From the NCBI GenBank assembly GCA_001567305.1, contig JYPD01000027.1, positions 1 through 38,108 of the forward strand: a DNA stretch of 38,108 nt, written 5' to 3'. Both the position numbers and the translations under genes were made by a program. The first letter of the stretch is position 1. Each line of letters starts with the position of its first letter. The DNA comes from a candidate division WS6 bacterium OLB21. GTDB taxonomy: Bacteria; Patescibacteriota; Dojkabacteria; B142; OLB20. This document shows positions 2,293-28,764 of the stretch, piece after piece. Under the pieces are notes generated by a model. That model was not told the origin of the DNA. It ran no database searches and saw only the letters and a list, made by a program, of their open reading frames with translations.

Positions 2293-3342
2293 ATGGCTAA
2301 TAAGTCTTCTACAGATACAGATGAGTTGTTATCAAAATTAGACGATCTTTTTACCAAAGCCAAGGCCAATATCAAGAGTATTTCCTCTAAAGAAGAGCTT
2401 GAACTGGAAAGGATCAGATATACTGGCAGAAAGTCCGAACTGACCTCAATACTTAGAGGCATCAAAGACCTTAGCCCAGAAGGAAAACAAGCAGTAGGTA
2501 GCAGAGCCAACGAAATCAGAATTCAAGTTGATCAACTTATTGACCAAAAAAGAGATCAGTTGATTCAAGAGAACATCGAAAAGCTGTCAAATGCAGAAAA
2601 AATTGATGTAACAGTCCCAAGCCAGCTTAAGAATGGACACCAGCATATTATTTCACAGATGCAGGCAAAGATAGAGGATATCTTCCAAAGAATGGGTTTT
2701 CAAGTTGTTTATCCATACGAAATCGACACAGATTATAACAACTTTCAAGCTGTAAATATTCCTGAAGGACACCCCGCTCGTGACAGTTGGGATACTTTCT
2801 GGACAGAAGACGATCACATAGCAGTGACACATACATCGTCCATGCAAAATAGAGTTCTAAAATCATCAGAACCACCAATTAGAGTTATTGTCCCAGGAAG
2901 GACTTTTAGACACGAAGCTACAGACGCAAGGCACGAGCATACCTTTACACAGGTAGAAGGCGTTTATGTAGATAAGGGAATAACCTTTGCAGACATGCTT
3001 GGCACACTAAAAGCTTTCTTTTCCGAATTCTTTGAGAAAGACATACAAATCAAGTTTTCTCCGGACTTCTTTCCATTCGTCGAACCAGGAGGAATGATAT
3101 CAATCGATGTTTCAGACTTTGGAGACACTTTTAAAGAAGTGACAAAAGGAACAGGCTGGTTGGAAATCTTGGGTTGTGGCATGATTCATCCGAAAGTTCT
3201 AGAAATGGGAGGTATTGATCCAAATGTATACAGCGGATTTGCTTGGGGCTTTGGCTTAGAAAGACTTGTGATGCCAAAATTCGGTATAGAAGATGTAAGA
3301 CATTTCTATAAAGGAGACTTAGCTTTTATTAGACAGTTTTAA
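2293..3342 (+). CDS. pheS: Phenylalanyl-tRNA synthetase alpha subunit
   Basis: 349 residues, normal PheS length. The N-terminal ~90 residues form the tRNA-binding coiled coil (GRKSELTSILRGIKDLSPE). The class II core follows with NIPEGHPARDSWDTFW, THTSSMQNR, motif 2 RVIVPGRTFRHEATDARHEHTF, EPGGMISIDVSDFG, GCGMIHP and motif 3 GFGLERLVMPKFGIEDVR. It makes phenylalanyl-tRNA as an alpha2-beta2 enzyme with PheT. Its stop TAA overlaps the pheT ATG by one base (TAATG), indicating coupled translation. It lies 27 bases after rplT, probably in the same transcript. Confidence 0.97.
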   Translation: MANKSSTDTDELLSKLDDLFTKAKANIKSISSKEELELERIRYTGRKSELTSILRGIKDLSPEGKQAVGSRANEIRIQVDQLIDQKRDQLIQENIEKLSNAEKIDVTVPSQLKNGHQHIISQMQAKIEDIFQRMGFQVVYPYEIDTDYNNFQAVNIPEGHPARDSWDTFWTEDDHIAVTHTSSMQNRVLKSSEPPIRVIVPGRTFRHEATDARHEHTFTQVEGVYVDKGITFADMLGTLKAFFSEFFEKDIQIKFSPDFFPFVEPGGMISIDVSDFGDTFKEVTKGTGWLEILGCGMIHPKVLEMGGIDPNVYSGFAWGFGLERLVMPKFGIEDVRHFYKGDLAFIRQF

Positions 3343-5783
3343 TGTATATCTCATATAAATGGCTGTTAAGTTATCTGCCTGATTTAGATAACTTTGAGCC
3401 ACAAACAATCGCAGTTGCCCTTACCGACTCATTGGCCGAGGTCGAGGGAATCACATATATCAGAAATGGACTCAAGAATATTGTCAGCGCAGAAGTTAAA
3501 TCAAAAGAACCACACCCTAGTAACGATAAACTAAGTGTATGTGTCGTTTACGATGGCAGAGAAGAAAGAACCATAATATGCGGTGCAGCTAATGTCAGAG
3601 TGGGGCAAACTGTGGCAGTCTGCTTGCCTGGTGGATCGGTGCTTAATCCATCAGAAGAACTAGGCAAGCAAAGCATTATTAAGATTGAAGAGAAAAAGAT
3701 TGGAAGCATAGCTTCGTTTGGAATGATATGTTCTGCAAAAGAGCTGGGACTTGCAGATGACCACGATAGTATTTTAGAACTTGAACCGGAAATCCAAGTC
3801 GGCAACGAAATCGTAAGCACTCTAACAGATATTGTTTTTGAAATCGAAAACAAATCAATTAGTCATAGACCTGACTGCTTCTGCCATAAGGGAATCGCCA
3901 GAGAACTATCTGCTATCTTAAAAATTGACTTCGTTGATGTAAAGCACGAGGTATCGCTTATTCCAACTGCCGACATGCCAATAGATGTTTCTGTAAAGGT
4001 AACAGAAAGTCTTTGTTCAAGGTTCTGTGCTATCACACTCAGCGATGTAAGCGTTAAAGATTCTCCTTTATGGTTAAAATCAAGACTTACAGCAGTTGGG
4101 ATTAGGAGTGTCAATAATATCGTTGATCTTACTAATTTTGTCATGCTTGATAAGGGGCAACCGATGCATGCTTTCGACTATGACAAACTATCGAATAATG
4201 AACTTACGGTGCGTACAGCCAAAAAAGATGAACAGCTAAAAGCACTTGATAACACAACCTACACCCTAGACGAATCAATGGTTGTTATAACTGATGCATC
4301 TAATAAGCCAAAGAGTATTGCCGGTCTTATAGGTGGACTTGACAGCGAAATTTCCAACGAAACAAAAAATATTGTCTTAGAAGCAGCAACTTGGGAGATG
4401 TATAATATTCGTCGAACTTCAAGGCAACTTGGTGTTCGTACAGAAGCAAGTATGCGCTTTGAAAAGGGCCTAGATCCAAATAACGCACTAGATTCACTAA
4501 AGAGTGCTTTGTTCTATGTACAAGATCTTGCCGGTGGAGAAGTTGCTTCTCCAATTATTGATGTGTATCCTAAGCCTAGAGAAGAACACAAGATATCTCT
4601 TCCAATGCCTATGATCAAGCGTTTTATCGGCATAGACATCAGTAAAGACAACGCAATCGAGATGCTTGAACTACTTGGTCTTACACACCTAGAAGAAGAA
4701 AGCTCTTCTGGTGAAACCGAATTAGATACCGAAATCTTTGAGATTCCAACATTCAGAAACGACTTAAAGATACCACAAGATTTACTAGAAGAAATCGCCA
4801 GACTCTATGGCTACGACAATATTAAACCGACTCTGCCTGAAAAAGACCTGAAACCTTCCCCAACAAACAAAATTAGTAAATTAAACTCAAAGATAAGATC
4901 TATACTCACATCAACTGGTATGGATGAAGTTATTACTTATAGCTTTGTTAATGAAAAACAATACAAAGTATTGAATTTGTCGGCTAATAGTTGTCTGAAG
5001 ATAAAGAATCCAATATCTCCTGAATTGTCTTTACTTAGAACCAGTCTAATTCCTGGGTTGATATCTAAACTAGACTATAACACTAGTCAATTCGATGAGT
5101 TTGCTTTATTCGAAATCGGTCGAATCATTCAAAAAGAACTAGACGAAGAGGGGATTCATAAGCAACCGTATAAAGTATCAGGAGTCTACTATAGTAAAGA
5201 CTCAGAAGAAGCCTTCTCTAAAATCAAATACTATGTCGAATCTCTGCTTTCTAAGCTAAACATCCCAAGTATCTCGTTCTCCAACGAAAAATTACAGGAT
5301 AATAGTGGGCTGATTAAAGCAATGCACCCCGGAAGATTCTGCATTGTTTACTCCGGAACTACCCAAATCGGTGTTTTAGGAGAACTTAATCTTGCGGCGG
5401 CTCACAGGCTCGAATTAGACGGTAGATCATCGCTATTCGAACTTGATCACCAACAACTATTAGAATTATCATCTGACTACGCACAGTACAAAAGAATCTC
5501 TGAATATCAGTTTGTTAATCGAGATTTAAGCTTCTGGTTAACTGACGATACAAATTATGATGAAATAATTAAGGTTATCAATGATCTTAAAAGATCCACT
5601 TGTACAAAAGGTTGAGCTCTTAGACCTATTTACATCTGAGAAAAAACGCAGGGAAGAAGAGCTATACTATCTCTGTAAGGCTACAGAGTTACGAAAAAAA
5701 CACTGACAGAGAACGAGATCAATAAATCAATTGAACAATTGAGCTCCGGTCTAATTAAAAGGCTGAAAGCCGAAATCCGCTAG
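3342..5783 (+). CDS. pheT: Phenylalanyl-tRNA synthetase beta subunit, with three A-run frameshifts near the 3' end
   Basis: Carries the EMAP-like tRNA-binding domain (EVKSKEPHPSNDKLSVC), the B3/4 editing region (SRFCAITL, DLTNFVMLDKGQPMHAFDYDKL), B5 (RFIGIDISKDNAIEMLELLGL), the inactive class II core and a C-terminal anticodon-binding (FDX-ACB) domain. The uninterrupted frame stops at 5613-5615, inside FDX-ACB (NRDLSFWLTDD). Removing one A from each of the runs 5589-5592, 5641-5646 and 5694-5700 restores DPLVQKVELLDLF, GKKSYTISVRLQS and TLTENEINKSIEQL, ending at the TAG 5781-5783, an ideal FDX-ACB end. As written the protein would lose most of its anticodon-recognition domain. Three like-signed changes within 110 bases suggest sequence error or recent decay. 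Converges on the penicillin-binding protein gene 10 bases away. Confidence 0.93.
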
Positions 5784-22175: not shown

Positions 22176-25100
22176 ATGAAAACTGCCCTAAACAACAAAT
22201 TATTGATAATAGTACTTGCTTTGTTTGTCCTATCGCTTGTTCCAAAACAAGCCTTAGCACAAAATTCGACCAGAGATACTGTTGAATTCAAAAACAGAAT
22301 CGTTAATCAGAATGGTCAAGCGATCAAAGACGGAACTTATAATATGAAGTTCATTCTCTTTGACAACTCTTCAGGAGGAAATGAGTTATGGAGTGAAGAG
22401 AGAAGTGTACCCACCAGAAGAGGCAATTTTAGTGTCAATCTTGGATCCATCAATCCTTTTCCAAAAGCTTCATTAGCTAATGTTTCAGACCTATTCTTGC
22501 ACATATGTTTAGATGCCAACGGTCAGGACAACGATGGAGGAGGAATTTGTGCAACTCGCTATGAAGAAAATTTTAGATCAAGGAAAAGGATAACCTCGGT
22601 TCCCTGGTCACTTAGATCCTTTGCCTTGGGCCCTGTATCAATCAATGACGGAGGTACTGGTTTTCCCATAAATGTAACAAGCGGTAACGGAACTATCGTT
22701 AATTTTCAATATCAGGATCTAACAAGATTAAGTGTTGGAACAAACGGTTTAGTAACCATGTCAGATGGTTCTACAAACTTTATCTTCAATCCTGCTGAAC
22801 AAAGAGTTACGCTTTCTAGTGGGGCAGACATCTTTTTTGGGACAAAATCGATAAAAAGTACAACAGCTGGATTATCTGGAGCCTCAATAGTAGGAGTAAA
22901 CCAGGCAAACTTCACAAATATTAGTGGAGCAGATGTACAAGCTGTATTAGATTCGATAGACGATCTTATCGGAACCGGAGGAGGTATCCAGAATGAAACG
23001 GATCCTATCTGGATAGCAGCCAGAAACTCTTCCTCTCAAACAATTACTCCAAATTGGAATTTCTCGTCTCCAGTTGGACTTAACCAAGGAGCAGTTTTTG
23101 GTAACAACGCAGGAACTACAGCCGGAACAATTCGCTATACAGGTTCCGATTTCGAAGGCTACACTGGCGGAAACTGGGTATCTCTTACTTCAGGTTCAAT
23201 TGCGGAAACAGATCCTATTTGGATAGCAGCCAGAAACTCTTCCTCTCAGACTATAACTCCTGCCTGGACATTCTCGGCACCTCTTGATCTTACACAAGGT
23301 GCAGTCTTTGGTAATAATGCAGGGACAACAGCCGGAACAATTCGCTACACAGGTTCCGATTTCGAAGGCTACACTGGCGGAAACTGGGTGTCTCTTACCA
23401 CCGCTCCCGTCTCCGAGACAGATCCTGTCTGGGTTGACAACAGAGATACTAATCCGACAACGATTACACCCGAATGGACCTTCTCTGACACAATAAATAC
23501 TGCTGATATTTTACCCACTACAGATGCTACTAGTTCGCTTGGTAGTCAGGGTAGTAGGTATAACCAAGGCCTATTTTCAGAATTTATTGGTATCGGAACA
23601 ACAACAAATTATGTAGCTGGAAAATCACTCTTGCAATTAGACTCAAGCGAAGAGATACAACCCACCAGTGGAGATTATGATTTGATTAACGGACGAACAG
23701 TCTATGATGCACAAGGAACAACCGGAAGTGAACAAATCAATTTAATTAACATTAGAACAGACATCGCTGAAGGTGATGGTTCAAACATCAACAGAGCGAG
23801 AGGAGTTAGATCTACAATTCTTAATAACAATGATGGTCAAATGAATGGAGTATTTAATTTCTCCTCTTCAGTAAGGAATGAAAAAACAGTAACCGGTTCT
23901 TTCTACTCATTTACTGGCTTTACTGAAAATGTCGGTACCGTAAATGGTTTTATCAGTAATATGGGATCTACTGTAGTTAACTCCGGAACCGCAAACAATC
24001 TTCGAGGCAATGAGATTGCTATCAATAACTCGGGTAGCGCCAATGCTGTTAATGGTGCGATCAACTTTCTCACTAATACAGGCACAGTAAGTGGTGGGTT
24101 TACCTCATATTCCAGCAATATTCTCAACAACGGCACCGTAAACACGATGCATGGATTATTTAGCTTTATCACCAATAACAACGAAGTAGCTGGAAGGCTG
24201 TCTTCAATCTACTACAACCTGCAAAATAATGGCACCTATTCCAATGTAGATAGCGGTTTCTCCAGTTACATATTTGGAAACAATACCTCTGGAACGATTC
24301 CACAATGGTACGGATATACAATTGATCAAACTAATGCTGGAACAGCTTTAGGTTCCATTAGAGGTTTAAACAATGTTGTCGTAAATGCCTCGACTGGGAC
24401 AATTGCTGACGCACTTGATACTGTAATTAATATCTTCAGAAATGATGGCAATATAGAAGGAACGAGTAGCGGTATCAAGAATATTGTTGCAGCAGGAACA
24501 ATTAATAATGGAGGAATATATGGTATTGACAATAACATCGGTAGTTTACAAATCCTTGAGACTGTCCCTACATCTGTTGAATTCGTTTATGGATTATCAA
24601 ACAGAGTAGAGGGTTCAGGAGCACAAGAGATCTATTCAAATGACTACATATCGGGCATCTACAACCAATTGAATGGAGATGTTAGCGCGGTAAATCGCAT
24701 TATTGGTATTGAGAATGAGATTACAACCACCGGAACTGCGAATGAATACTATGGAATCTGGAATGATGTTCAACCTCTTGCACCTTCATCTGACATAATT
24801 GGAATGTACTCAACCAACGGCATCTCTTATACCTACCTTAATTACGAGGGCACTAGTGGGGATAATTACTCAATTTTTGGAGAAAGAGCTTACTTCACAT
24901 CCATTGATATAGACAACAGCTTAAATCGAATATCCACTAGTCCAGGTCCTGCAGCAGTTGCTGATCTATATTACGGTGATGATCTATTGTGCGATGTAAG
25001 CTTGCCTAACTGTGGTATGGGAGGAGGAGGAGGAGGTCAATGGGACGATGATGGTTTTGATAATATATATTATCAGTCTGGAAATGTGGCAATAGGGACT

Positions 25101-26537
25101 TCCAGTTTTGATGCTACTTTTAATGTATCTGGAGAATCGGCTGTATTAGGGGGTTTCGTCATAGGTTCATTAACACCAAGTTCAAGTTATGGTCAACTTA
25201 CAATTGATAGGTCTTTTGATCAAGGAAATGGTGCCCATATTAGCTTTGTTAATTCTTTCCATACGGGTGATCCTGTGTATTACGACGAAGGAGATCTTTG
25301 GTATAACTCAAATACACAAAACCTCAGGTTTTATGATGGGAACTCAATAATTAATCTAGGTAGCGGAGGTGGAGGTGGTCAATGGGAGGAATCGGGTAGT
25401 GACATCTATTATGACGACGGATATGTCGCTATTGGAACCTCAAGCTTCACAGAGCCATTTACAGCCTTCGGCGGATCCTCTTTTGAAGGTGGAAGCTTAT
25501 ATTGGTATGGTAGCGCACCTTATGAAGGTATGGTTCTGGATTATTGGAATAACAGTATTTCATTAGGTAATTATGTAGGAGATTATGATATCTATCTTCA
25601 AGGTAATGTCTCAATCATTAGTTCAGATTATTTCGATGTTCAATCTCAACAAAGCATTAGTTTTGGAGAGATTATTTATGACAGAGCAGGGGGAACGATT
25701 CAATTTGGAGTAGATTGGACTGCGAATGGCCAACCTTTATCATATTTCCAGAACACGATAACTATTGAGAATACATACGATTACAGCTCAGCAAACTTGA
25801 TGATAGAAAACGGCTTCATCTGCGTTGATGATGGTTCGGCTAGTTGTCCTGCATCTACTCCAGGAACCGTATATGCCCAATTTGCCTACGACGAGTTCGA
25901 TGTTGCTGAAAATATTCTAGCAAGGTTAGACGTTAACCCAGCCGAAATCGTTACCTTTGACCCAAATAAATCAGAGGCGGTAATGAAGTCATCCGAAGCC
26001 TACCAAGAAGGACTACTTGGAGTGATTAGCACCGAACCTGGTGTTCTTGGAGGTATTAAGCTTCAAGCTGTAGACAACTATAAAGTTATGCCCATATCTT
26101 TAGCAGGAAGAGTGCCAGTTAAAGTGAACCTAGAAGGGGGCAAGATAAGGATTGGCGACCCTATCACATCATCAAGCATTCCGGGTGTTGGAATGAAAGC
26201 AACTAGTCCCGGCAGAATAATCGGTTATGCTCTAGATGATTTTAACCAGTCAGAAGGAACGATAGTTGTCTATATCTCAAATAGCTATTACATGCCAAAA
26301 GGATTTTCTCAAGGCAAAAGTGGCTTAGAGGGCGATTCTGCCACATTAAAATCAGGGTCAGACTCAATCACGATTTACAATGCAAATATCAACTCTAAGA
26401 GTCTTATTAATATAACACCAACAAGCTCAACCTCGGGTCAAGTCCTATATGTTGCGTCAAAAGGTGAGGGATTCTTTACAGTCAGAATTGACTCCAGAAT
26501 AAGCAAAGACATTAGCTTTGATTATTTAATAAAGTAG
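22176..26537 (+). CDS. Giant repeat-rich surface fibre protein (1453 residues)
   Basis: Signal peptide (LLIIVLALFVLSLVPKQALAQ). Residues ~30-150 form a domain like those heading CPR fibre proteins (TVEFKNRIVNQNGQAIKDGT, RITSVPWSLRSFAL). Residues ~274-413 are two near-identical 70-residue repeats plus a third partial one (ETDPIWIAARNSSSQTITP, GTIRYTGSDFEGYTGGNW). Residues ~530-800 are Asn/Gly/Thr-rich with short repeats (NNGTVN, NNSGSAN, NTGTVS) suggesting a beta-solenoid. Two Gly-rich hinges each lead into a GQW...IYY...VAIGTSSF module. The end (VAENILARLDVNPAEIVTFD, LAGRVPVKVNLEGGKIRIGD, SSIPGVGMKATSPGRIIGYA) is a domain I associate with CPR surface fibres, with no sorting signal or membrane anchor. 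Likely an adhesin or appendage subunit; last gene before a terminator. Confidence 0.8.
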   Translation: MKTALNNKLLIIVLALFVLSLVPKQALAQNSTRDTVEFKNRIVNQNGQAIKDGTYNMKFILFDNSSGGNELWSEERSVPTRRGNFSVNLGSINPFPKASLANVSDLFLHICLDANGQDNDGGGICATRYEENFRSRKRITSVPWSLRSFALGPVSINDGGTGFPINVTSGNGTIVNFQYQDLTRLSVGTNGLVTMSDGSTNFIFNPAEQRVTLSSGADIFFGTKSIKSTTAGLSGASIVGVNQANFTNISGADVQAVLDSIDDLIGTGGGIQNETDPIWIAARNSSSQTITPNWNFSSPVGLNQGAVFGNNAGTTAGTIRYTGSDFEGYTGGNWVSLTSGSIAETDPIWIAARNSSSQTITPAWTFSAPLDLTQGAVFGNNAGTTAGTIRYTGSDFEGYTGGNWVSLTTAPVSETDPVWVDNRDTNPTTITPEWTFSDTINTADILPTTDATSSLGSQGSRYNQGLFSEFIGIGTTTNYVAGKSLLQLDSSEEIQPTSGDYDLINGRTVYDAQGTTGSEQINLINIRTDIAEGDGSNINRARGVRSTILNNNDGQMNGVFNFSSSVRNEKTVTGSFYSFTGFTENVGTVNGFISNMGSTVVNSGTANNLRGNEIAINNSGSANAVNGAINFLTNTGTVSGGFTSYSSNILNNGTVNTMHGLFSFITNNNEVAGRLSSIYYNLQNNGTYSNVDSGFSSYIFGNNTSGTIPQWYGYTIDQTNAGTALGSIRGLNNVVVNASTGTIADALDTVINIFRNDGNIEGTSSGIKNIVAAGTINNGGIYGIDNNIGSLQILETVPTSVEFVYGLSNRVEGSGAQEIYSNDYISGIYNQLNGDVSAVNRIIGIENEITTTGTANEYYGIWNDVQPLAPSSDIIGMYSTNGISYTYLNYEGTSGDNYSIFGERAYFTSIDIDNSLNRISTSPGPAAVADLYYGDDLLCDVSLPNCGMGGGGGGQWDDDGFDNIYYQSGNVAIGTSSFDATFNVSGESAVLGGFVIGSLTPSSSYGQLTIDRSFDQGNGAHISFVNSFHTGDPVYYDEGDLWYNSNTQNLRFYDGNSIINLGSGGGGGQWEESGSDIYYDDGYVAIGTSSFTEPFTAFGGSSFEGGSLYWYGSAPYEGMVLDYWNNSISLGNYVGDYDIYLQGNVSIISSDYFDVQSQQSISFGEIIYDRAGGTIQFGVDWTANGQPLSYFQNTITIENTYDYSSANLMIENGFICVDDGSASCPASTPGTVYAQFAYDEFDVAENILARLDVNPAEIVTFDPNKSEAVMKSSEAYQEGLLGVISTEPGVLGGIKLQAVDNYKVMPISLAGRVPVKVNLEGGKIRIGDPITSSSIPGVGMKATSPGRIIGYALDDFNQSEGTIVVYISNSYYMPKGFSQGKSGLEGDSATLKSGSDSITIYNANINSKSLINITPTSSTSGQVLYVASKGEGFFTVRIDSRISKDISFDYLIK
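22995..23495 (+). repeat. Tandem 210-bp coding repeats
   Basis: Unit 1 is 22995-23204, unit 2 is 23205-23414, and a diverged partial third begins at 23415 (GAGACAGATCCTGTCTGG). Units 1 and 2 share long identical DNA stretches around 23121-23190 and 23331-23400, not only protein similarity, which points to recent duplication or gene conversion. Copy number could vary between strains. Confidence 0.85.
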
Positions 26538-26772: not shown

Positions 26773-28764
26773 ATGAAAACAATTCAATTCTCAATTAAAC
26801 CCGAGTTATTTGAACTATTTAAAAATGCACAGTTTGGTGCAGTTCTTTTATCCGATATTGTGGTAAAAGATGTTAATCATCAAGAACTGCTGCAGAATCT
26901 TCGCAGAAATATCTATTCTAGATTAGCAAATAGCAATAAGAACATATCTGAAACAAAAGAGTATAGACTCTGGGGGCATGTCTTTTCATTACTTGGTTTA
27001 AATATCAAACAACAATTACCATCACATCTGGCTCTTTATAAAAGATTCAAAAACAACCGAGAACTACCAAAAATCAACACACTGGTAGACATCTATAACC
27101 ATATATCGCTACTTAGACAGATACCTTTAGGTGGTCATAATGTAGAAGGCATTGACTCAATAAGTATAGATTCGACAAATGGTTCAGAAGTATACATCTC
27201 TAAAGGCAAGAACGAATTAGTCGAAGCAAATCGATGGGCCTATATGGACAACCATAATCGTGTTCTAACAAAAGATCTTGTTTGGAGACAGAGCGATGTA
27301 TCATTAATTGGTGAGGAAACAAAAAGCATTTTCATACCTATTGACGATATTACTGCGTCATTCTCTAACCACCAATTAGCAAATATAGTCAACGAAATTG
27401 TCGATGTACTTTCAAACTTCTATAACTTCAAATGGAGCTATGGAATAATAAACAAGTATAATCAAAAGATACTATTAACAACGGCGAATACCGAAATTAT
27501 TAGCAAGCCCAACAATCTATTGCTACCTACACCCGAAATCAATACATCTAACTCAGCAATAAGCTCTTTTCTTGATCACAAAATTGACGAAGTATACCCA
27601 AGTAAAGAAAGTTTAATAGAAGCACTAAAATCTGGTCGCAGACTAAGTTTTTACATCGGAGCAGACGCAACTGCGCCAAGACTACATCTTGGCCACTTAA
27701 TTCCAGTGTTAAAACTTAAAGAGCTACAGGAAATGGGGCATAGACTGGTGTTTCTGATTGGGGACTTTACAGCAAGAATTGGCGACCCCACAGATAAATC
27801 TGCTGCAAGAGTTATGCTAACGGAAGAAGAAGTAAACCGTAATGCAAAAAACTTTCTGGAGCAAATCAAAAAATATATCGACTTTGACAGCTCATCAAAC
27901 CCAGCAGAAGTAGTCTTTAACTCAACATGGAACGATCAACTCTCGATGAGTGATGTCATCGATTTGAGCTCTAATTTCACAGTGCAACAAATGTTGGAAA
28001 GGGATATGTTTGCCAAAAGAATAAAAGAAAACAAACCTATTTATCTTCATGAATTCCTTTACCCACTTCTACAAGGTTATGACTCGGTATACATGGGCGT
28101 AGATGGGGAGTTTGGTGGTAGAGACCAAACATTTAATATGCTTGCAGGTAGGACTCTCGCGAAAAATATCGCTGGCATAGATAAATTTGTTGTTACAACT
28201 CACTTTCTATTGTCGGCAGATGGAGTCAATAAGATGAGTAAAAGCATAGGAAACTGTATATTTATCGACGACTCACCTCAAGACAAGTACGGAAAGGTAA
28301 TGTCCATCCCTGACGAGCTTATTATGCATTATTATCAATTAGCTACTCAGTTTGATAACGAGAGACTAATTCTTATCGAAGACGAACTGGAGAGGGGGCA
28401 ACCTATGGATATTAAGAAGAAACTCGCATTTGAAGTTGTTAGACTCAACGACGGAGAATCTTCTGCAAAAGAAGCGCAAAATTACTTCGAGCAAACTGTA
28501 CAATTAGGAAATAGACCGAACGATGCAAGAGAAGTGTCAAAATCGGAATTAAGACTGATTACCGGAAAAGACACAATTCAAGTAAAAGAATTATTAATAT
28601 TAACAAAACTATGCTCAAGCAATTCAGAAGCAAAACGGCTCTGTAAATCTGGGGCAGTCGAAGTGAACGAGATAAAAGCAACAAATCCAGAACAAGAGTA
28701 TTCTTTAGCCGAAATTGATACAATCAAGGCAGGAAAACGAAATTGGATTATTTTAGTAAATTAA
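26773..28764 (+). CDS. tyrS: Tyrosyl-tRNA synthetase with an N-terminal B3/4 editing-type domain
   Basis: 663 residues, about 240 more than usual TyrRS. Residues ~60-195 carry the B3/4 signature of stand-alone COG3382-type proteins and PheRS beta: ELPKINTLVDIYNHISL, IPLGGHNVEGIDSI and VWRQSDVSLIGEETKSIFI. Residues ~270-560 are a class Ic synthetase with YIGADATAPRLHLGHL (HIGH at 305-308), FLIGDFTARIGDPT, YMGVDGEFGGRDQ and NKMSKSIGN. Residues ~600-660 are an S4 RNA-binding domain (IQVKELLILTKLCSSNSEAK). No Met lies between residue 158 and ~321, so the TyrRS part has no ATG of its own. B3/4 domains in PheRS hydrolyse Tyr-tRNA(Phe); fused to TyrRS, the domain may edit a mischarged tRNA, but the substrate is unknown. 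The genome's PheT keeps its own B3/4. Confidence 0.93.
   Translation: MKTIQFSIKPELFELFKNAQFGAVLLSDIVVKDVNHQELLQNLRRNIYSRLANSNKNISETKEYRLWGHVFSLLGLNIKQQLPSHLALYKRFKNNRELPKINTLVDIYNHISLLRQIPLGGHNVEGIDSISIDSTNGSEVYISKGKNELVEANRWAYMDNHNRVLTKDLVWRQSDVSLIGEETKSIFIPIDDITASFSNHQLANIVNEIVDVLSNFYNFKWSYGIINKYNQKILLTTANTEIISKPNNLLLPTPEINTSNSAISSFLDHKIDEVYPSKESLIEALKSGRRLSFYIGADATAPRLHLGHLIPVLKLKELQEMGHRLVFLIGDFTARIGDPTDKSAARVMLTEEEVNRNAKNFLEQIKKYIDFDSSSNPAEVVFNSTWNDQLSMSDVIDLSSNFTVQQMLERDMFAKRIKENKPIYLHEFLYPLLQGYDSVYMGVDGEFGGRDQTFNMLAGRTLAKNIAGIDKFVVTTHFLLSADGVNKMSKSIGNCIFIDDSPQDKYGKVMSIPDELIMHYYQLATQFDNERLILIEDELERGQPMDIKKKLAFEVVRLNDGESSAKEAQNYFEQTVQLGNRPNDAREVSKSELRLITGKDTIQVKELLILTKLCSSNSEAKRLCKSGAVEVNEIKATNPEQEYSLAEIDTIKAGKRNWIILVN

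Follow-up and report, generated by a model that had tools for sequence, protein, structure and literature searches.

A CtdA-like B3/4 domain fused to tyrosyl-tRNA synthetase in a WS6 bacterium and its relatives: a candidate tRNA(Tyr) proofreading module

A CtdA-like B3/4 domain is joined to the N-terminus of tyrosyl-tRNA synthetase (TyrRS) in candidate division WS6 bacterium OLB21, within the 38,108-nucleotide stretch of DNA analysed here (the window). The fusion is real and continuous, and some relatives share it. To our knowledge, TyrRS and ArgRS are usually counted as synthetases without an editing domain. We suggest, at a probability of roughly 65%, that the N-terminal domain is a CtdA-type deacylase that would proofread the tRNA(Tyr) charged by its own TyrRS, sparing Tyr-tRNA(Tyr) and removing an analogue without a para-hydroxyl (Phe, m-Tyr). 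After charging of tRNA(Tyr) by TyrRS, a CCA end bearing the wrong amino acid would be expected to shift to the B3/4 pocket of the fused domain, where the ester would be hydrolysed (post-transfer editing in cis). The residues predicted to take part are a family core of Ser84, Asn109, Gly120 and Arg172 and a TyrRS-specific lining of His122, Thr166, Val170 and Pro189.

The fusion gene is a single ORF with an ATG start and no internal stop (Table 1), in agreement with the continuous fusion described in a first-pass annotation of this DNA. That annotation assigned the N-terminal ~240 residues to the B3/4 fold, and the match is far above chance: Pfam B3_4 (PF03483) covers residues 67-191 with 48.7 bits against a cut-off of 29.3 (E = 8.5e-13), and E is 1.4e-13 when the N-terminal part is searched alone. 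Pfam tRNA-synt_1b is matched at residues 287-575 (244.7 bits), and the NCBIfam tyrS equivalog TIGR00234 at residues 266-661 (348.9 bits against a cut-off of 113.8; E = 4e-104). The TyrRS body is complete and is the same catalytic body as in ordinary bacterial TyrRS (TIGR00234), with both signature motifs and the tail; the fusion differs in its additional editing-type domain of 240 residues. The earlier claim that no internal Met could start TyrRS alone is correct for ATG, which is absent from residue 195 to the HLGH motif, but a TTG at residue 250 is the single possible internal start in that stretch and could in principle start TyrRS alone. No obvious ribosome-binding site was seen at this TTG.

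Table 1 Positions of the fusion gene, its parts and pocket residues, and the PheT editing domain in the window
Feature	Position	Strand	Basis
B3/4-TyrRS fusion gene, 663 aa, sole TyrRS found in assembly	26773..28764	+	ORF, Pfam, NCBIfam
CtdA-like B3/4 domain, residues 1-240 (Pfam core 67-191 = 26971-27345)	26773..27492	+	PF03483, CtdA 9f7e match, alignment
Linker, about residues 241-262, without ATG; in-frame TTG at 27520	27493..27558	+	
Bacterial TyrRS body, HLGH at residue 305, KMSKS at 487, S4-like C-terminus	27559..28764	+	Pfam, NCBIfam
Ser84, invariant in TyrRS-type, near-universal in family	27022..27024	+	Alignment
Asn109, at PheRS Asn250 (editing site); invariant in TyrRS-type, 25/27 in Arg-type/stand-alone	27097..27099	+	Alignment
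His122, TyrRS-type signature (10/10); Glu in ArgRS-type, stand-alone and CtdA; Phe/Tyr in most LysRS-type	27136..27138	+	Alignment
Thr166, TyrRS-type signature (10/10); Cys in Arg-type (23/27)	27268..27270	+	Alignment
Val170, TyrRS-type signature (9/10); Asn in Arg-type (25/27); at PheRS Gly315	27280..27282	+	Alignment, PMC3275996
Pro189, at PheRS Glu334	27337..27339	+	Alignment, PMC3275996
Canonical B3/4 editing domain within PheT (3342-5615)	4014..4535	+	Pfam, 205.9 bits; alignment

The genome (G000) is a draft assembly of 1.05 Mb in 32 contigs, and the fusion and PheT hold the only two B3/4 domains found in it. A second TyrRS was not found in the assembly, in which the other W/Y-type synthetase is TrpRS; since the assembly is ~87% complete, this lack is not absolute. 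Immediately upstream of the fusion (22176-26537) lies an ORF of 1453 aa to which Pfam has no match; its N-terminus is hydrophobic and signal-like, and it contains repeated segments. A homologous ORF is found at the corresponding site in G001 (62% identity across 374 aa).

The domain had at first been likened to that of PheRS. Both belong to the same Pfam family, but when a ten-domain profile was compared with solved structures, the nearest was CtdA (9f7e; E = 4.9e-21), with 9mkl at E = 2.1e-18 and PheRS beta chains at ~1e-3 (1.2e-3), indicating that the fused domain is a CtdA-like B3/4 and not a PheRS copy. CtdA, a protein that stands alone, has been proven to deacylate canavanyl-tRNA(Arg) (Hauth 2023, PMC10018355; PDB 9f7e). 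As the closest characterised sequence relative, it shares the core Trp67, Ser84, Arg91, Asn109, Pro118, Gly120, Asp159 and Arg172, but it is not joined to a synthetase, and the positions held in the TyrRS-type domain by His122, Thr166 and Val170 are occupied in CtdA by Glu, Cys and Asn. The B3/4 domain of PheRS hydrolyses Tyr-tRNA(Phe) and, in bacteria, also m-Tyr-tRNA(Phe) (PMC3275996). Its Asn250 aligns with Asn109 of the fused domain, whereas the other Tyr-editing residues are not kept: His261, Gly315 and Glu334 align with Gly120, Val170 and Pro189. Gly in place of His261 also occurs in active archaeal and eukaryotic PheRS (PMC3275996). A single-sequence AlphaFold model of residues 1-245 (pLDDT 37) was worthless.

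PheT in the window keeps a full B3/4 region, as the first-pass annotation noted, with Asn265, His276, Phe278, Gly328 and Glu347 aligned to the PheRS editing-site positions. Because this Tyr-editing site is intact, the fusion is not needed for editing Tyr-tRNA(Phe). A Tyr-hydrolysing pocket on TyrRS would also destroy the enzyme's own product, so clearance of mischarged Tyr, one of the functions initially considered, is unlikely as it was put.

Within the TyrRS-type set, 17 columns are invariant among ten domains, which are 25-41% identical to that of the window. When these 10 sequences were compared with 27 Arg-type, stand-alone and CtdA sequences, 38 columns were conserved in both sets and about five separated TyrRS-type from Arg-type, namely 170 (Val/Asn), 122 (His/Glu), 150 (Val/Pro), 166 (Thr/Cys) and 191 (Asp/Glu). 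These columns map to the PheRS side-chain pocket in an alignment of very low identity. The Arg-type combination Glu122/Cys166/Asn170 is absent from the fused domain, which has His122/Thr166/Val170. In PheRS, Glu334 and the amide of Gly315 hold the tyrosine para-OH (PMC3275996); since Pro and Val stand at these positions here, tyrosine would be expected to be excluded and an aromatic amino acid lacking the para-hydroxyl to be admitted. The alignments thus suggest that the catalytic core has been kept, that the tyrosine-recognising groups are gone and that the pocket may be tuned to another substrate. For a TyrRS, such a change would be required if Tyr-tRNA(Tyr) is to escape hydrolysis. The choice of substrate is guesswork, with Phe and m-Tyr as first candidates and other analogues after them. 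Bacterial TyrRS is generally thought to be good at discriminating against Phe. Recognition of Phe by TyrRS at some rate has been described (PMC11415595).

A search across relatives recovered the B3/4-TyrRS fusion in nine of 86 genomes of the class, spread over several families (G000, G001, G008, G009, G018, G052, G065, G067 and G068). The frame is intact in eight of them, and the G001 assembly has a one-base frameshift. One further TyrRS fusion (G122, outside the class) was identified in a phylum sample of 380 genomes, where some weaker matches were judged by frame length alone, which does not fit a TyrRS fusion; the G122 fusion may or may not be an independent event (AU p = 0.478). Separate genes in relatives, which the first-pass annotation had set against the fusion, are found in part. 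Two members of the family to which the window's genome belongs, G002 and G005, keep the tyrS-recG-uppP order and lack the domain, so B3/4 on TyrRS is dispensable, a point against the proposed proofreading role. A tenth genome (G024) encodes a TyrRS-type B3/4 apart from TyrRS, in a protein that also holds a tRNA_bind OB domain. One scan of genome contigs returned an unfused TyrRS only. No relative was found in viral contigs, phage records gave three weak, partial and unannotated matches, and the annotated ones among the best plasmid matches were stand-alone B3/4 proteins only.

Other arrangements were also seen in the class. In G018, a TyrRS of 846 aa (L116, G018:C61:14000-17573) consists of B3/4, then a YbaK/ProX-like tRNA_edit domain (PF04073), then the TyrRS body. 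TyrRSs of G003 (L089), G048 (L133) and G051 (L134) have an N-terminal tRNA_bind OB in place of B3/4, as PMC5370408 describes for WS6 bacteria. The separate B3/4-tRNA_bind protein of G024, with a TyrRS-type pocket, is clustered (G024:C62, L108:229-4810) with a SAM methyltransferase, a MetE-like protein and the genome's second TyrRS, which is highly divergent; the group resembles a small gene cluster for an antimetabolite or for self-protection.

The OB domains at the same N-terminal site raise the question of whether B3/4 is likewise an add-on that increases the affinity of TyrRS for tRNA without hydrolysis, and B2-TyrRS fusions of that sort are described by Mukai 2017 (PMC5370408). Pure binding, however, predicts conservation of the surface, and what is found instead is an invariant set of core residues aligned to the PheRS editing site and a pocket lining that is specific to the synthetase partner. 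The G024 protein holds B3/4 and tRNA_bind together, so the two are not substitutes, and the G018 enzyme bears a second editing-type domain. We therefore consider a binding role unlikely, and recruitment solely as a tRNA-binding module, which had been offered at first, is disfavoured by pocket residues that are invariant and follow tRNA identity.

A role in defence or self-protection, with the domain clearing a tyrosine analogue that competitors or hosts make as a toxin and mattering under exposure only, differs from proofreading of the enzyme's own errors in substrate only. CtdA (canavanine) and guanidine-riboswitch relatives act in this way (PMC10018355), the domain is patchy within one family, and the trans version of G024 has the neighbours described above. 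Beside the fusion in the window, however, no antimetabolite gene was recognised, and tyrS-recG-uppP is a conserved housekeeping arrangement, which makes such a role improbable for this gene.

It is more doubtful still that the domain clears D-Tyr-tRNA(Tyr) in place of D-aminoacyl-tRNA deacylase (DTD). Charging of D-Tyr is classically associated with TyrRS, and DTD is uncommon among genomes of the class (11 of 86). Three of the genomes with the fusion (G000, G001 and G018) nevertheless have their own DTD, which rules out replacement in these three, and the partner-specific side-chain pocket points to selection by side chain and not by chirality. Finally, two adjacent genes misread as one is conceivable in a draft of this fragmentation, but the recurrence of the same architecture in other genomes refutes such an artefact.

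The B3/4 tree places the class's TyrRS-type domains and the trans version of G024 in one clade (100/98 and 100/99), whereas a clade of the fused TyrRS bodies is rejected (p-AU = 1e-4, seven changes). The domains of the window and G001 are sister to those of G008 and G009, and tyrS lies beside recG in all four genomes; as one clade, the four TyrRS bodies are rejected (p = 5.6e-70). Between the window and G001, identity is ~41% for the domain and 63-66% for the TyrRS body; the domain evolves faster than the body, which also weighs against the proposed function. The simplest reading of these trees would be that the domain was retained while TyrRS bodies were swapped beneath it, with loss in some lineages. 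This would resemble the body replacement under a B2 domain reported by Mukai 2017 (PMC5370408), where a PheRS-beta-like B2 (OB) domain stands N-terminally on the TyrRS of WS6 CPR bacteria.

In the wider phylum, CtdA-like B3/4 domains are attached N-terminally to ArgRS and C-terminally to class I LysRS, class II LysRS and MetRS (partners assigned by Pfam on examples), and they also occur as stand-alone proteins. In the window's genome, ArgRS lies at a contig edge and is not preceded by a B3/4 domain. The two LysRS classes, I and II, are unrelated enzymes, yet their B3/4 domains form one interleaved clade; monophyly is rejected for the LysRS-II domains taken alone (AU p = 0.004), and p is 0.048 for the LysRS-I domains taken alone. 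The exception is the LysRS-II domain of G270, which falls among stand-alone proteins. In kind, this evidence is stronger than that from TyrRS. Because the TyrRS-type clade spans bodies that are not a clade, and because both LysRS classes share one clade, module inheritance follows the tRNA or amino acid rather than the enzyme. We regard it as an even bet that the CtdA-like B3/4 of this phylum is a portable proofreading cassette with tRNA-specific types, carried by TyrRS, ArgRS, MetRS and both LysRSs and staying with a tRNA identity while bodies change, and that it would provide a natural built-in editing site for TyrRS and probably ArgRS.

Earlier work has described the domain family, CtdA and B2-TyrRS fusions. 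A natural B3/4 fused to TyrRS, LysRS or ArgRS, or the five-partner pattern, was not found in the literature searched, which lay outside subscription journals and in which no naturally occurring editing domain of TyrRS is described; the natural B3/4-TyrRS and the five-partner pattern thus seem new, and prior art is possible. The B2 domain of Mukai 2017 (PMC5370408) is a tRNA-binding OB fold and not the B3/4 editing fold; the available part of that paper also describes a C-terminal B2-like domain on LysRS and makes no mention of B3/4 fusions. As summarised in PMC3275996, B3/B4 of archaeal PheRS has been engineered into TyrRS to destroy Tyr-tRNA(Tyr) (Oki 2008). Both that chimera and the present fusion place a B3/B4 module in TyrRS, but the chimera is man-made, and its natural counterpart must spare Tyr-tRNA(Tyr). 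If the proposed function is true, it would reveal which TyrRS error is bad enough to require proofreading. One module type per tRNA over distinct, in part unrelated, bodies would make a clean and testable case of editing specificity carried by the module and its tRNA, and would supply off-the-shelf candidate editing domains that are naturally matched to tRNA(Tyr), tRNA(Lys), tRNA(Arg) and tRNA(Met).

Among the stand-alone proteins, four overlap the start of argS (L073, L080, L081 and L084). Several of their core residues are changed, including Asn109 to Lys or Arg in some, and these proteins are possibly decaying or altered in activity. The MetRSs with a C-terminal B3/4 (L055, L056 and L057, in G084, G077 and G080) form their own clade. 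In G008, a class II LysRS of 1119 aa (L135:91-3447, G008:C23) carries an HD domain, B3/4 and a C-terminal DUF2000.
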